Source: Egicoccus sp. AB-alg2
GTDB taxonomy: Bacteria > Actinomycetota > Nitriliruptoria > Nitriliruptorales > Nitriliruptoraceae
Assembly: GCF_041821065.1 (NCBI RefSeq)
Contig: NZ_JBGUAX010000001.1
Coordinates: 372,001-436,000 of the forward strand
Direction of reading: 5' to 3'
Length of the DNA: 64,000 bases
Notes under the pieces: model-generated
The model's database searches: none
What the model was told of the DNA's origin: nothing
Seen by the model: only the letters and a program-made list of their open reading frames with translations
Program-made: the position numbers and the translations under genes
In this document: piece by piece, positions 43,082 through 48,870 of the stretch
How positions within the stretch are numbered: the first letter of the stretch is position 1
How the letters are laid out: every line of letters begins with the position of its first letter

Positions 43082-44611
43082 ATGGCCGGACTCGGGGACG
43101 TCTTGCAGCACTATCAGGGGGAGGACCGTCGTAACGCGCTGGTGTGTGCGTCGGTCGGTCCGGGGTGGACGCTGGCCTGGTTGCCGCTGGTGGTGGTCGC
43201 GGCCCTGCCGGCGATCACACTGGCGGACCGACTGAACGAGTTGGCGCTGCTGGGTCGGCCGACCTGGCGTGCCGTGACGGTGGCCTTGGCCGTCGTGCTG
43301 TCCCTGGTAGCCGCCCTGCTCCACCGGGCGACGGGTGAGGCGCGCGCGGTGCGCCTGTGTACTGCCACCGCGCTCCTGGCCGCCGCGAGCCTGCCCGCCT
43401 CGGTGCTCGGTGGCCGCCAACCGCGGCTCGGCGACGCGCTCGTGGTGGCGGGCACCGCCGTGGCGGGCTGGTGGTCGGTGCGCCTGTCCGACACCGCGGA
43501 GGTCGACACCTCGCTCCGCCCCGCGCCGGACGTGGTCCGTGGCCTCGGTGCGCTCGTCGTCGCGATGCTCGCGATCGTCGGCGCCGGCGAGGTGATGGGC
43601 GCCGTGCCGGTGCCGGTGCTGGCGGCAGCGGTGGCGACGATGCTGTGGACGGTCGCCGCCGCGCGTCTGCTGGTTCGTTGGCGCAGCCGCAGCGCGACCG
43701 CCCTGCAGGCCTGGACGGCCACCTTCGCGGTCGGCATGGCGGTGGCAGAGGCGGCTCGGCTCGTGGCCCGGTGGTCGCTGCAGCCGGGGTGGTTCCTGAC
43801 CAGCGCGGTCGTGCGCTTGGCGGGTCTGCTCGTGCTGACGGTCGGCGTGGTGTACCTGCTCACCCAGTCGCTGGAGGTGCGTCGTTCCGAGCTGCACCTG
43901 CTGCGGGTCGAGCGCGTCCGTTCCGAGCGCGACCGCGAACACCAGCAGCTGCAACTCCAGCACGAGGTCCGCAATGCGCTGCTGGGTCTGGAGGCCGCGA
44001 CCGCCGTCCTGCGCGGCGGGGAACGCCTGGCCCCGGACCGGCGCGAGGAGATGACCGCCGCGCTGGCCACCGGTCTGTCCCGGCTGCGTGTCCTGTTGCT
44101 CCCGGACGGCCAGCGGACGGCGGCGACGACCGTCCCCATCGGCCAGATCGTCGTGCCGACGGTCCTGCTGGCCCGGGCACGCGGTACGCAGCTCCTCCTC
44201 GACGGCGACCTCGACGCGACCGTCCAGTGCGTACCCGGGGCCCTGGCACAGGCACTGGACAACCTGCTGGTGAACGCCGACCGCCACGGCCGTGCCCGGG
44301 AGGTGCCCGCGCTCGTCCAGGTCGACCGCGACGGCGACCGCGTGCTCGTGCGCGTCAGCGATCGTGGTCCCGGCGTGCCCGACGGCCTGCGGGAGCAGGT
44401 CTTCGCGCCGGGCGTGACGCTCGCCGCCACCGGCGGTCACGGCGTCGGCCTCCCGCTCGCGCGTCGGCTGGTGCGCGAGGCCGGCGGTGAGCTGTGGGTC
44501 GATGCAGGCCTGGATCACGGCGCCTGCTTCGTGATGTCACTCCCCCTGGCTGGCTCGATGGACGCCGCCGGCGCCGGCGCCGGTGAGGAGCAGCGTGATC
44601 AACTCGTCTGA
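43082..44611 (+). CDS. Membrane sensor histidine kinase
   Basis: A 509-residue kinase. Residues 30-262 contain about eight membrane segments with almost no extracytoplasmic domain, indicating membrane-borne sensing. A cytoplasmic helix leads to the phosphoacceptor motif QLQHEVRNALLGLEAA, His294, followed by the N box DNLLVNADRHG (Asn394), G1 DRGPGVP (427-433) and G2 GGHGVGLPLARRL (451-463). The final 18 residues after the ATPase fold (Gly/Ala/Glu-rich) are antisense to the gene at 44537-44914. ATG 43082 follows a GC-rich leader; TAGGAT at about 43022 is a possible -10. It is likely paired with the response regulator at 44945 and may control the secretion operon that follows. Confidence 0.9.
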   Translation: MAGLGDVLQHYQGEDRRNALVCASVGPGWTLAWLPLVVVAALPAITLADRLNELALLGRPTWRAVTVALAVVLSLVAALLHRATGEARAVRLCTATALLAAASLPASVLGGRQPRLGDALVVAGTAVAGWWSVRLSDTAEVDTSLRPAPDVVRGLGALVVAMLAIVGAGEVMGAVPVPVLAAAVATMLWTVAAARLLVRWRSRSATALQAWTATFAVGMAVAEAARLVARWSLQPGWFLTSAVVRLAGLLVLTVGVVYLLTQSLEVRRSELHLLRVERVRSERDREHQQLQLQHEVRNALLGLEAATAVLRGGERLAPDRREEMTAALATGLSRLRVLLLPDGQRTAATTVPIGQIVVPTVLLARARGTQLLLDGDLDATVQCVPGALAQALDNLLVNADRHGRAREVPALVQVDRDGDRVLVRVSDRGPGVPDGLREQVFAPGVTLAATGGHGVGLPLARRLVREAGGELWVDAGLDHGACFVMSLPLAGSMDAAGAGAGEEQRDQLV

Positions 44612-44914
44612 GGCGACCGAGCCCAGGTACCGGCCGTCGCTGGCGGTCAGTGCCGCGCCACTGCCGGTACCGCCGGTTTCGTCCAGAGTCGCGTACAGCA
44701 GCGCTCGGATGTCCGTGCGGTCCTGCGGGTCGAGCACGACCGCGACGTCGAAGACCTCCTCGGTGCCGACCGGCGCGACCGCCACCTCGACACCGCCGGC
44801 GCGCAGCACGGTGCACAACGTGTCCACGAGCAACGGCGGACGGGCCGCGAGCACGACGCGGCGGGGTGGAGGCGAAACGGCTGTCACACCCGCAGTCGAC
44901 CATGCCCACTCCAC
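44537..44914 (-). CDS. Small receiver-like protein, overlapping the kinase gene tail to tail
   Basis: A frame of up to 125 residues on the minus strand between the kinase and the response regulator; its last 75 bp overlap the kinase 3' end. The central part reads VVLAARPPLLVDTLCTVLRAGGVEVAVA followed by DVAVVLDP, the alternation expected of a response-regulator receiver fold, but the phosphoacceptor region is atypical and no output domain follows. Third codon positions are strongly G/C in this frame, which supports coding. GTG 44914 or GTG 44887 are possible starts. It could be a degenerate receiver or CheY-like partner of the adjacent kinase. A chance frame is not excluded. Confidence 0.55.
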   Translation of the reverse strand: MEWAWSTAGVTAVSPPPRRVVLAARPPLLVDTLCTVLRAGGVEVAVAPVGTEEVFDVAVVLDPQDRTDIRALLYATLDETGGTGSGAALTASDGRYLGSVASDELITLLLTGAGAGGVHRASQGE

Positions 44915-44944
44915 GGCCGCATCACACGAATTGGGGAAACGCGC

Positions 44945-45604
44945 GTGACCAGTCGCCTGGCCATCGTCGAGGACCACGGGCTGATCGCGCACACGGTCGC
45001 GTCGGCGTTCCGCAGCCGCGACGTCGAGGTCACCGTCGTGCCGCCGGCGTCCGCCGACGCCCTCGTGACGACGGTCGTCGGCCTCGCCCCCGACCTCGCG
45101 CTGGTCGACCTCGACCTCGGTGACGACGTCAGCGCGCTGGACCTGCTGCCCGCCCTGGCCGAGCACGAGGTCCCCGCCGTCGTGCTGACCGGCGTACGTG
45201 ACCGCGTCCGTCACGCGCAGTGCGTCGCCGCCGGCGCCCGTGCGGTGCTCACCAAGGACGGTTCGTTCGATGAGCTGGCGGCGACGGTGGACCGGGCGCT
45301 GGCGGGCGAGCCGCTGCTGTCCCGCCACGAGCGCGAGGAACACCTCGCGTTGCTGCGCCAGCACCAGCGCGCCGAGGAGGCCCGGTTGGCACCGTTCCGC
45401 GAGCTCACGCCGCGCGAGGCCGAGGTGCTGGCCGGCCTGATACGTGGCCGGTCCGTGGAGCAGATCGCGACCGAGTGCGTGGTGGCGGTGTCGACCGTTC
45501 GCAGCCAGGTGCGTGCCATCCTGCGCAAGCTCGGCGTCAGCTCACAGCTGGCCGCGATCGCCCGCGCCAAGGAAGCCGAGTGGCAGCCGCCCAGCGGCTC
45601 CTGA
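44945..45604 (+). CDS. NarL/FixJ-family response regulator
   Basis: A 219-residue transcription factor. The receiver domain has Asp55 in LALVDLDLG as likely phosphoacceptor, acidic residues in VEDHG, the Thr in VVLTGV and the Lys in AVLTKDG. A charged linker leads to a C-terminal LuxR-type helix-turn-helix (FRELTPREAEVLAGLIRGRSVEQIATECVVAVSTVRSQVRAILRKLG, quoted here only by its ends in spirit: LTPREAEVL and VRAILRKLG). GTG 44945 has GGGGAAA upstream. It is immediately followed, after 199 bp, by the TasA-like/SipW operon and is the best candidate for its regulator. Confidence 0.9.
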   Translation: MTSRLAIVEDHGLIAHTVASAFRSRDVEVTVVPPASADALVTTVVGLAPDLALVDLDLGDDVSALDLLPALAEHEVPAVVLTGVRDRVRHAQCVAAGARAVLTKDGSFDELAATVDRALAGEPLLSRHEREEHLALLRQHQRAEEARLAPFRELTPREAEVLAGLIRGRSVEQIATECVVAVSTVRSQVRAILRKLGVSSQLAAIARAKEAEWQPPSGS

Positions 45605-45607
45605 GGC

Positions 45608-45638
45608 GGCGATTCGCCGACGTTCCTCAACTTTGAGG
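45608..45638. promoter_or_regulatory. Two inverted repeats between the response regulator and the TasA-like operon
   Basis: GGCGA-T-TCGCC (45608-45618) and CCTCAA-CT-TTGAGG (45625-45638) lie just after the regulator stop; a third pair GGTGCG/CGCACC spans about 45688-45709. The second is short-spaced and AT-richer than its surroundings, like a LuxR-family binding site. The remaining leader up to 45803 shows no clear -10. Confidence 0.4.
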
Positions 45639-45803
45639 ATGTCACGAGCGTCGACGCCCGGGAGTCTTCGGCCTGTCAGAGCGCGGGTGCGACGGCAATG
45701 ACGCACCGACCGAGAACTGGTCGCCAGGTCCGTGTCGAGCCAAGTGGCGAATCCACCCCCCGCGCACAGCTCGCCACACGGGCGAGCAATCAAGGGGTGA
45801 AAC

Positions 45804-46493
45804 GTGAACAAGAAGATTCTGGGCTCCGGCGTCGCCGTCGTTGCGGCCGCCGCACTGCTCACCGGCGGCACCTTCGCCGCCTGGAGCGACTGGGACACCA
45901 TCGAGGACAACAGCTCGGGTGCCGACCACCTCACGCTTGACCTCAACGGCAGTGGCATTGAGGGCTTCTCGAACGTCAAGCTCGCGCCGGGCGTCGAGGT
46001 CGAGCGCCAGTTCGTCGTCGCTAGCCGCGACGGTGAGACGGTGCCGGCGGCCGATCTCTACATCTCGATGGAGGAACTCGTCGGCAAGGAAGACGGCTGC
46101 CGCGGCAACAGTGAGCGAGAAGAGCAGGAGGCGATTTACGAGACCACCTGCGACGCGGAGTTCGAGACTGAGGAATTCCGGTTCGACGAACACGGTCAGT
46201 TCATCAAGGAGGCGCGCATCAACATCACCTCCACGAACGTGCCGACGGACGACCTCGACACCGCCTGCAACTCGACCCTCAACCCGCGGGGTGGCCGTCT
46301 GAACTCCATGTCGCTGCAAGACTTCGCGGCGAAGGATCGTGTGAGCCTCCTCAGCGCGGGCGAGACGCTCGGTAAGGGCGAGGGCGTCTGTGTGGGCGTC
46401 GTGATCCAGCTCCCGCAGAACGCGACCAACGCTTCCCAGGGCGACAGCGCAAGCTTCGATCTGCGTTTCGACCTCGAGCAGGCGATCAGCTGA
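45804..46493 (+). CDS. TasA/camelysin-like secreted protein (SipW substrate)
   Basis: A 229-residue exported protein. The N-terminus MNKKILGSGVAVVAAAALLTGGTFAAWSD is a signal peptide with the GTFAAWSD cleavage context typical of SipW-processed TasA, camelysin and related proteins; it is followed by the family-like segment NSSGADHLTLDLNGSG. The mature part is acidic, has several cysteines and a beta-rich pattern ending ASFDLRFDLEQAIS. TasA-type proteins polymerise into biofilm fibres in Bacillus. GTG 45804 has AAGGGG upstream. Third codon positions are somewhat less GC-rich than in the neighbours (codons such as ATT, GAA and CAA are frequent), which hints at a different history. Assembly into fibres is an inference. 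Confidence 0.82.
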   Translation: MNKKILGSGVAVVAAAALLTGGTFAAWSDWDTIEDNSSGADHLTLDLNGSGIEGFSNVKLAPGVEVERQFVVASRDGETVPAADLYISMEELVGKEDGCRGNSEREEQEAIYETTCDAEFETEEFRFDEHGQFIKEARINITSTNVPTDDLDTACNSTLNPRGGRLNSMSLQDFAAKDRVSLLSAGETLGKGEGVCVGVVIQLPQNATNASQGDSASFDLRFDLEQAIS

Positions 46494-46569
46494 GGCTGAA
46501 GCCGACGACCGGGTGGGCTGAGGCCCGCCCGGTCGCTCCATGTTCGGTTGCTTGGAGGAGATGTCGACC

Positions 46570-47136
46570 ATGACGGCCATCGCGCGCGCGGCCAGCAGGC
46601 TGGCGACAGCCGCAGCGGTGCTGCTGGCTGTTCTCGTTCTCGCGGTGGCCTTCGTGATTCCTCGCCTGACCGGTGGCGCGGCGCTCACCGTGTTGAGCGG
46701 ATCGATGACCCCCACGTATCCGGTGGGATCAATCGTCCTCGTGGTCCCGGCGAACCCGACCGAGATCGTGCCGGGTGACGTCATCACCTTCCAGACGCAG
46801 CCGGGCGTCCAGGAGTTCGTCACCCACCGTGTCGTTCGCGTGCAGGACACTGATCCGCTCAGTTTCGTCACCAAGGGCGACGCCAACTCCGGCGAGGACC
46901 GGGAACCGGTCCCCGCGGGCGCCGTTCGCGGCACCGTCCGGTTTCACCTTCCGTACCTGGGGTCGATCTCCGACTTCGTGCGGACGCCGGCGGGGATGCT
47001 GACCCTCGGTGGGCCGCTCCTACTGCTCTTCATGGTCCAACAGTTCGCGAACATGCGAAGCGAACTCCGCCGCGAGCGGACAGACGCCTCCCACGACTCC
47101 CCCACCGCGACGGAGAAAGTGGACAGCCGTGCCTGA
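46570..47136 (+). CDS. sipW: SipW-type (ER-like) signal peptidase I
   Basis: Membrane signal peptidase expected to process the TasA-like proteins on either side. The 188-residue protein has an N-terminal membrane segment, the nucleophile motif VLSGSMTPTYPVGSIVLV (catalytic Ser), THRVV with His in place of the Lys of ordinary bacterial signal peptidases, TKGDANSGED, and a C-terminal membrane segment. The Ser-His arrangement and two anchors define the ER/SipW type. ATG 46570 is chosen because GGAGGAG ends nine bases upstream; ATGs at 46540 and 46561 are alternatives. The gene order substrate-sipW-substrate mirrors the Bacillus tapA-sipW-tasA layout. Confidence 0.88.
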   Translation: MTAIARAASRLATAAAVLLAVLVLAVAFVIPRLTGGAALTVLSGSMTPTYPVGSIVLVVPANPTEIVPGDVITFQTQPGVQEFVTHRVVRVQDTDPLSFVTKGDANSGEDREPVPAGAVRGTVRFHLPYLGSISDFVRTPAGMLTLGGPLLLLFMVQQFANMRSELRRERTDASHDSPTATEKVDSRA

Positions 47137-47986
47137 CTCTCGCAGCGCTCCCGTTGCGCGAACGCGGCGCGCCGACCGGCCGCGTCGGCGACGCGCACGC
47201 TGGCGTCGCTGCAGCGCCGCTACGGCGTCGCTCGCCCTCGTGCTGGCGACCGCGAGCCTCGTCGTACCCGGCACGTACGCCGCGTGGTCCGACTTTGACG
47301 TCATCGAGGGGAATTCGGTCGGCGCCGACGTCTGGGAGCCGGACGAGGTCGAGTTCCGGATCATCGTCTGCCAGACGATCAACGTCGGCGAGCAGGGCCG
47401 CGTCCGCGTGCTGATCCCACAGACGGCGGCCTTCAACCCTATGGATCTCGACGTCACGACCCTCCGCTTCGGCGCGGAGGGCCACGAGGTGGCGCCCGTA
47501 CTCGAGGACAAGGGCCTTGGCGGCGTGTGCGAGCCAGGCCCGGCTCGAGGCCGCGTCCTCTACTTCGACATGCCGGTACCGGAGCTGACCCCTGACGACA
47601 CGCACGGCTGCGTCATCGGGGCGCTGCTCGATGGATCTCCTGGCCGTGGCTGCACGACCCTCGAGTACTCGAGCAGTCCTAGGCCCGCGTTACTCGAGGA
47701 TTCCGAGGTAGAGCAAACGCGCGATGACCTCGAGAAGTCTGCGGCCGAAGCCGAGGCTCCGACGGACGTGCCGGTGCCGGACGGCGACGTCACCGACGAC
47801 GAGCGCCCTCTGGATACTTCAGGCGACGGCACCGGGCGGACGACGGAACAGCGCCCCGGCGAGACCGACCGAGGGGCATACCTCGATGACACCACTGTCG
47901 AGGAGAGCCAGCCCATCCAGCCGGCCGAAGCCCCGACGGTGGACGTCGATGTCGACGAACCCGCAGGTGTCGAGAGACGACCGTGA
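47129..47986 (+). CDS. Second SipW-type secreted protein with acidic repeat-like tail
   Basis: A 285-residue exported protein. After an Arg-rich N-terminus and a hydrophobic segment it has GTYAAWSDFDVIEGNSVGAD, nearly the same cleavage and post-cleavage motif as the TasA-like protein upstream (GTFAAWSDWDTIEDNSSGAD). A beta-rich domain with four cysteines follows to about residue 180, then an acidic Glu/Asp/Pro/Thr-rich tail of about 100 residues with no membrane anchor. GTG 47129 overlaps the sipW end by eight bases. It may be a minor or capping subunit that associates with the TasA-like protein. Confidence 0.8.
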   Translation: MPDSRSAPVARTRRADRPRRRRARWRRCSAATASLALVLATASLVVPGTYAAWSDFDVIEGNSVGADVWEPDEVEFRIIVCQTINVGEQGRVRVLIPQTAAFNPMDLDVTTLRFGAEGHEVAPVLEDKGLGGVCEPGPARGRVLYFDMPVPELTPDDTHGCVIGALLDGSPGRGCTTLEYSSSPRPALLEDSEVEQTRDDLEKSAAEAEAPTDVPVPDGDVTDDERPLDTSGDGTGRTTEQRPGETDRGAYLDDTTVEESQPIQPAEAPTVDVDVDEPAGVERRP

Positions 47987-48870
47987 TGCCACCGTCAGCT
48001 CCTTTCACGCGGCGTCTGACACTGGTGCCCACCTTGACGATGCTGCTCCTGGCATCAGCGGCCGTCGTCCACGCGCAGTCGCCGGCGATTGACATCCGGA
48101 TCCTCGATGCACATGGCGACGTCGTGCCGGCGATCGAGGTCGAGGGGATCTATCCCACCGCTACCGCCGAGCACCTCGTCTTCCTGACCGTCGGCGCGTC
48201 GGGTGGCGTCGGCCCCTCGAACGTCGACGTGGAGATCCGCGACCTGCGTGACTACGAGAACGGGTGCTCACGTCCGGAGGTGCGAGCGGGCGACACGACG
48301 TGCGGACCCGGCCCGGACCAGGGCGAGCTATCCGGGCAGCTGGAGATGACCTGGCAACGAGGCGTCGCTGACAGCGACGACACGTGCGCGGTCGACGAGA
48401 CTCTCCTCTCCGGATCGACCCTGCGCGACCTCGAGGGGGTCCGCATCGGCATCGGCCAGGTCGGGACCGATGAGCGCATCTGCCTCGCCCTCACGCAACA
48501 CTTCCGCGCGGATCCGAGGAACAACCTGGCACAGGGCGACTCCTCCGTGTTCGACCTACGCGTCCATGCCGAGCAGGTGCTCGGGGACGCCCGCGACGCA
48601 CCTGATACCTCGCCCGAAGTGGTTCCGCCGGAGGACGTCGACGGCGGTTCTGTCCCTGAGGGCAAAGACGACGAGAGTGCCGATGGCCGGCAGGAGACGG
48701 TCCTGTCAGAACGCCATGATCGGACGGCCCGGACTTCACCAGACTCGGTACCCGACACCCGCGGCCTGCCGCGCACCGGTTTCGACCTGTCAGTGCTCGT
48801 CGCGGTCGCTGCCCTCGCACTGTTGGCCGGGCTCCGCGTGCTGCGCCGCCCACGGAAGCCACCGGGGTAG
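47983..48870 (+). CDS. LPXTG-anchored surface protein of the SipW operon
   Basis: A 295-residue protein with an N-terminal signal peptide (to about residue 32, ...VVHAQS), a beta-rich domain with several cysteines and the SVFDLRVHAEQ ending that echoes the TasA-like protein (SFDLRFDLEQ), an acidic linker, and a complete sorting signal: LPRTG at residues 262-266, a hydrophobic stretch and the basic tail RRPRK. It should be covalently attached to peptidoglycan by a sortase. It overlaps the preceding gene by four bases. No sortase is encoded in the window, so it must rely on one elsewhere. A likely role is to anchor the fibre formed by the upstream proteins to the wall. Confidence 0.82.
   Translation: MMPPSAPFTRRLTLVPTLTMLLLASAAVVHAQSPAIDIRILDAHGDVVPAIEVEGIYPTATAEHLVFLTVGASGGVGPSNVDVEIRDLRDYENGCSRPEVRAGDTTCGPGPDQGELSGQLEMTWQRGVADSDDTCAVDETLLSGSTLRDLEGVRIGIGQVGTDERICLALTQHFRADPRNNLAQGDSSVFDLRVHAEQVLGDARDAPDTSPEVVPPEDVDGGSVPEGKDDESADGRQETVLSERHDRTARTSPDSVPDTRGLPRTGFDLSVLVAVAALALLAGLRVLRRPRKPPG

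Follow-up and report, generated by a model that had tools for sequence, protein, structure and literature searches.

A SipW-type operon in Egicoccus sp. AB-alg2 that encodes a probable TasA-like protein with an LPXTG sorting signal

Gene content of the locus

We analyzed a window of 64 kb from Egicoccus sp. AB-alg2 (the whole stretch of DNA under study, positions 372,001 to 436,000 of contig NZ_JBGUAX010000001.1) and found in it six plus-strand genes for a two-component system and a SipW-type secretion operon ending in an LPXTG protein. Specifically, these genes encode a membrane sensor histidine kinase (43082-44611; HATPase_c, E 6e-20), a response regulator with a receiver domain and a LuxR-type helix-turn-helix (44945-45604; Response_reg and GerE), a TasA/camelysin-type subunit with a SipW-type signal peptide that we call A (45804-46493), a SipW-type signal peptidase (46540-47136), B, another protein whose signal is of the SipW type (47129-47986, with 47129 as its likely start), and a protein with a conventional signal peptide and an LPRTG anchor, C (47983-48870). 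The gap between kinase and regulator is 333 nt, and 199 nt separate the regulator stop from the start of A; the peptidase and B genes overlap by 8 nt (47129-47136) and those of B and C by 4 nt (47983-47986). A preliminary description of this DNA had listed the kinase, the LuxR-type regulator, the secreted proteins, an endoplasmic reticulum (ER)-type peptidase with its Ser and His, and a protein ending in LPRTG, a hydrophobic stretch and RRPRK, and had noted that the last three genes overlap; all of this was found as described.

The peptidase carries its serine in LSGSM and its histidine in VTHRV, and it scored 102.9 bits against TIGR02228, the model of ER/archaeal-type signal peptidases (cut-off 51.85). 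Its nearest relative in the Protein Data Bank (PDB) is SEC11, and it fell below the cut-off of the Bacillus SipW equivalog NF046067 (88.3 vs 190 bits). Among all 539 stop-to-stop frames of at least 60 aa in the window, the SipW-type signal T[FYLW]A.[FW][ST] was found only in A and B, and a properly placed LPxTG tail only in C. The genes for A, the peptidase, B and C have a G+C content of 64-70%, compared with 73% for the window as a whole and 74% for the two-component genes.

The exported proteins and the sorting signal

Protein A contains GTFAAWSDWDTIEDNSSGAD and, like B, which contains GTYAAWSDFDVIEGNSVGAD, scored above the cut-off of TIGR04088, a model of SipW-dependent signals. A also matched PF12389, named Camelysin metallo-endopeptidase in Pfam, with 25.3 bits (cut-off 22.5) over residues 3-74 only, a family that matched neither B nor C, and it remained below the cut-off of the Bacillus TasA equivalog NF046066 (16.4 vs 450 bits). 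By this score, A is a relative and not Bacillus TasA itself. The mature chains are predicted to start with AWSDWDTIEDNSSGAD in A and AWSDFDVIEGNSVGAD in B, and a 33-aa stretch across the cut is 58% identical between the two proteins, the export/donor segment being all that they have in common. In TasA, the first residues past the SipW cut make up a strand that is donated to the following subunit and completes it (PMC9674648); the presumed donor segment of A (WSDWDTIEDNSSGADHL, 45882-45932) has the same position and is common to B.

Beyond this segment, B has a central domain of its own (47348-47671) and an acidic tail, and the protein has no Pfam match. The central part could be aligned, collinearly but weakly, with a different family of extracellular domains from the class, which we located through a consensus (single-comparison hmmsearch E 1e-4; hhalign E 0.006, though with a probability of 6%). 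With a central domain that differs from that of A and aligns, weakly, with another extracellular domain, B was rejected as a second TasA-like subunit. TapA begins with AFHDI where TasA begins with AFNDI, carries this segment on an already complete domain, and has been proposed as an initiator (PMC10151520). The likeness of B to A is equivalent, an N-terminal donor segment copying that of the fiber subunit, and the central domains of B and A differ as those of TapA and TasA do in Bacillus.

Protein C consists of an ordinary signal peptide ending in VVHA, a TasA-like domain, an acidic linker and the anchor. Its mature chain begins at the strand after the donor segment, and the donor-like segment present in A and B is absent from it. 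Signal peptides were assigned by eye for C and for its orthologue in G123, a genome from another family of the phylum Actinomycetota. Because its signal peptide is conventional, C is probably not a SipW substrate. Judged by sequence comparison, C is a paralogue of A (BLAST E 3e-5; profile-profile hhalign E 9.3e-11); its profile also matches the A protein of G123 (E 3e-8), and A and C have four cysteines each, in matching contexts.

We built AlphaFold models of A and C from shallow alignments of three rows and searched them with Foldseek against the whole PDB (350,542 chains). TasA came first for both of these low-confidence models, as 5of2/5of1 for A (E 2e-4, probability 1.00) and as the TasA fiber 8aur for C (E 8e-4, probability 1.00). 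A second comparison with TasA gave Z 8.2 for A (root-mean-square deviation, rmsd, 3.3; 137 aligned) and Z 7.1 for C (rmsd 4.2; 147 aligned, beginning at TasA residue 42, beyond the donor strand); since these Z-scores are tied with those of other jelly-rolls, a TasA fold is likely rather than proven for A and C. The preliminary description had held the exported proteins to be TasA-like and had named predicted folds unrelated to TasA or camelysin as grounds against this. With TasA ranking first, the likeness is supported for the models of A and C; it does not extend to B, given its different central domain.

The C-terminus of C carries LPRTG, a hydrophobic stretch and RRPRK (48766-48867), and LPRTG is kept in the G123 orthologue. 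We base the LPXTG assignment on the motif itself and on its retention in G123 at 34% overall identity. The preliminary description had expected at least one sortase in a genome with such a wall-sorting signal, and this genome has six sortase domains: one class E and one class F domain score above the NCBIfam cut-offs, one further class E-like and two class F-like domains score below them, and the last is a degenerate fusion. None of the six scored above the cut-off for class C pilin sortases. There is no sortase in the 64-kb window, and anchoring of C would therefore depend on a general one. Sortases were present in all other checked genomes with an LPXTG neighbor, and also in genomes without one. 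At L006 (G000:C1:546344-546661, minus strand), a sortase-like domain is fused behind a VanY-like D-Ala-D-Ala carboxypeptidase domain; because it has TLTTS in place of the sortase TLTTC, this fusion probably lacks sortase activity.

Related loci and the upstream region

SipW-dependent signals were found in 36 of the 396 sampled genomes of the phylum. Among the regions fetched from the phylum, the locus of G123 comprises the kinase, the regulator, A, SipW, the LPRTG protein and, as its third protein of the SipW type, one with RTX repeats; its identity to the window is 71% for SipW, 41% for A, 38% for the regulator, 36% for the kinase and 34% for C. Five species of genus g253 have the kinase, the regulator and A in this order, followed by SipW in four of them, while the contig of the fifth stops directly after A; no LPXTG neighbor was seen in the g253 regions. 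A scan of genome contigs with A returned only Nocardioides litoris, which has A and SipW but no LPXTG protein and carries a SipW-type protein with RTX repeats on the other strand. On the gene contents of G123 and g253, we take the regulator pair together with A and SipW as the core of the system, to which C is added in both the window and G123.

In two further lineages of the phylum, G707 (MPDTG) and G076/G339 (LPKTG), SipW operons likewise include an LPXTG protein whose signal peptide is conventional. By eye, C seemed related to the LPXTG proteins of G707 and L086; single-sequence hhalign did not support this, and we therefore claim only the arrangement as common to G707 and G076/G339. Searches of a plasmid collection and a viral collection returned nothing. 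The lower G+C of A, SipW, B and C, together with the patchy distribution, suggests that the operon was acquired laterally.

The SipW-type peptidases of N. litoris (L123 10473-11495) and of genus g253 have a long C-terminal extension that is missing from the window copy. SipW-type signals on proteins with RTX calcium-binding repeats adjoin the fiber operon in two lineages (L089 3892-5370 and L123 11652-12248). In G707 (L137), the SipW cluster adjoins both the MPDTG protein and a 900-aa frame whose product, by eye, resembles a large surface protein bearing a von Willebrand-type domain; this cluster is possibly another anchored fiber. Finally, the operon adjoins a gene that by eye resembles moaA in G123 and g253 (L089, L134-L136), which is not so in the window.

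The window, G123 and genus g253 all keep the kinase/regulator pair next to A. Directly past the regulator stop of the window lies a dyad, TCCTCAA-CT-TTGAGGA (45624-45639), and the same place is taken by TCATCGA-TT-TCGACGA in genus g253 (TCATCGA-AA-TCGATGA in one species) and by a weaker version in G123. The similarity had p ~0.02 in shuffles, both for the window and for G123. Because the 23-mer has equal or better matches elsewhere in the window, its conservation is only suggestive, and we regard it as a candidate operator upstream of A. A sigma-70 promoter scan and an Rfam scan found nothing. In Clostridium perfringens, the two-component system BsaRS is required for the SipW fiber operon (PMC7395162), so regulation linked to such an operon is of an already known kind. 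The dedicated regulation claimed in the preliminary description is supported by the retention of the pair in G123 and g253, though not as something new, given BsaRS. Between the kinase and the regulator, the minus strand has a coding-like frame with high G+C third positions (44537-44884), which by eye resembles a degenerate receiver domain and has no Pfam match.

Proposed fiber assembly, alternatives and known systems

We propose, with a probability of about 0.6, that this operon builds an extracellular TasA-type donor-strand fiber that is held covalently on peptidoglycan. SipW would cut A and B and free their N-terminal donor strands, and A would polymerize as each subunit hands its donor strand to its neighbor. 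In B the donor segment comes without the A domain, and this protein may start or tip the fiber, as proposed for TapA. C, which has an A-type domain without a donor strand, could accept the last donor strand and end growth, and a class E or class F sortase of the genome would then attach it to the wall. Switching on the operon would fall to the kinase/regulator pair, which may act through the dyad that precedes A. The complete division of labor, in which B only gives a strand, A gives and accepts, and C only accepts and is linked by sortase to peptidoglycan, we put forward tentatively, as a scheme with somewhat less than an even chance of being right in all three roles. If it is true, a subunit that has lost its donor strand would cap the fiber and root it covalently, and two assembly routes that have so far been treated separately would be joined; the SipW operons with an LPXTG protein in G707 and G076/G339 would then make the design a recurring one in the phylum.

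Several results weigh against the anchored fiber. Besides the tied Z-scores, the predicted local distance difference test and template modeling scores (pLDDT and pTM) are low for both models (A, pLDDT 46, pTM 0.47; C, pLDDT 65, pTM 0.61), and these models are not fully independent, as rows of A and C stand in each other's alignments. When profiles of the A and C families were searched against the PDB, TasA was not among the matches, and a pairwise BLAST of A against the TasA N-terminus was not significant. The LPXTG anchor models (TIGR01167 and the Pfam anchors), which are short and degenerate, did not report C at E <= 1. A search of 60 relatives, including three congeners, found neither A nor C, save for one weak match to A in G034 (E 0.002), so the system is not a core trait. 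Because the third SipW-type protein of G123 has RTX repeats, B is not conserved as such. Cleavage, fiber formation, polarity and anchoring are all inferred.

A TasA-type fiber might also be made without C as its anchor, C being an independent wall protein, or A forming a free matrix as BsaA does while C serves as a decoration or cell-cell receptor. The five g253 species and N. litoris, which have A and/or SipW without an LPXTG neighbor, are in keeping with this, as is BsaA, which is mostly extracellular and needs no sortase (PMC7395162); the 4-nt overlap that places C in one operon with B, the paralogy of C with A and its same place in G123 argue otherwise, and we hold this account to be possible though unlikely. 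Alternatively, there may be no fiber at all, with A and B as soluble secreted proteins and C as a separate wall-anchored surface protein or receptor. Polymerization of A is itself a prediction, and the domains of B differ from those of the third G123 protein. This account is, in our estimate, an improbable one in view of the domain common to A and C, the segment that A and B share around and past the cut, and the known SipW partners, which polymerize (PMC9674648, PMC7395162, PMC13082335).

We consider two further explanations to be far less probable. A sortase-polymerized pilus, in which C and perhaps others are joined by isopeptide bonds, would make use of the LPRTG of C; the sorting signal is on C only, however, and neither a class C pilin sortase above cut-off in the genome nor any sortase in the window is there to build it, which leaves this very improbable. 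That A is a secreted camelysin-type protease, as the Pfam family name might imply, is the least probable of all: neither A nor C has an HExxH motif, the PF12389 match is confined to the signal and first strands of A, and the camelysin family includes non-enzymatic fiber proteins such as TasA (PMC10151520).

If the anchored fiber is real, its interest lies in attachment. In Bacillus, where protein threads of this kind keep biofilms together, the hold of TasA-type fibers on the cell is unsettled, and TapA or CapP is thought to act without a covalent link; to our knowledge, no covalent anchor of TasA-type threads is known in the Bacillus system. The question of fiber attachment becomes testable in a natural operon that has a wall-anchored TasA-like subunit, and the fiber type with its linked regulation would extend to actinobacteria. 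Our literature search, which covered open-licence papers, found none describing a TasA-like LPXTG protein or such a fiber in actinobacteria.

The locus resembles tapA-sipW-tasA of B. subtilis in its dedicated SipW, its TasA-type subunit and another SipW-type protein that repeats the N-terminus of this subunit. Unlike in B. subtilis, the kinase/regulator pair adjoins the operon, B can be likened to TapA by its donor segment only, and a further TasA-like protein is present, which bears LPXTG and has an ordinary signal peptide. The sipW-bsaABCRSD operon of C. perfringens likewise combines SipW and a polymerizing matrix protein with a two-component system by which it is controlled (PMC7395162); it differs in that BsaA has no LPXTG and forms mostly extracellular polymers, the flanking srtB is not needed, and the regulator genes lie inside the operon. 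The sipW-tasA-capP-calY locus of B. cereus encodes two SipW-exported fiber proteins and the chaperone-like accessory CapP, which has a wall-binding, disordered C-domain but is described as sortase-independent and has no LPXTG (PMC13082335). Within the phylum, the kinase-regulator-A-SipW core is found in G123 and g253 and C in G123, whereas g253 and N. litoris have no C, and an RTX-repeat protein stands for B in G123 and N. litoris. The fiber type, the peptidase and the linked regulation are of known kinds, and the TasA-like, LPXTG-bearing protein is the new element.

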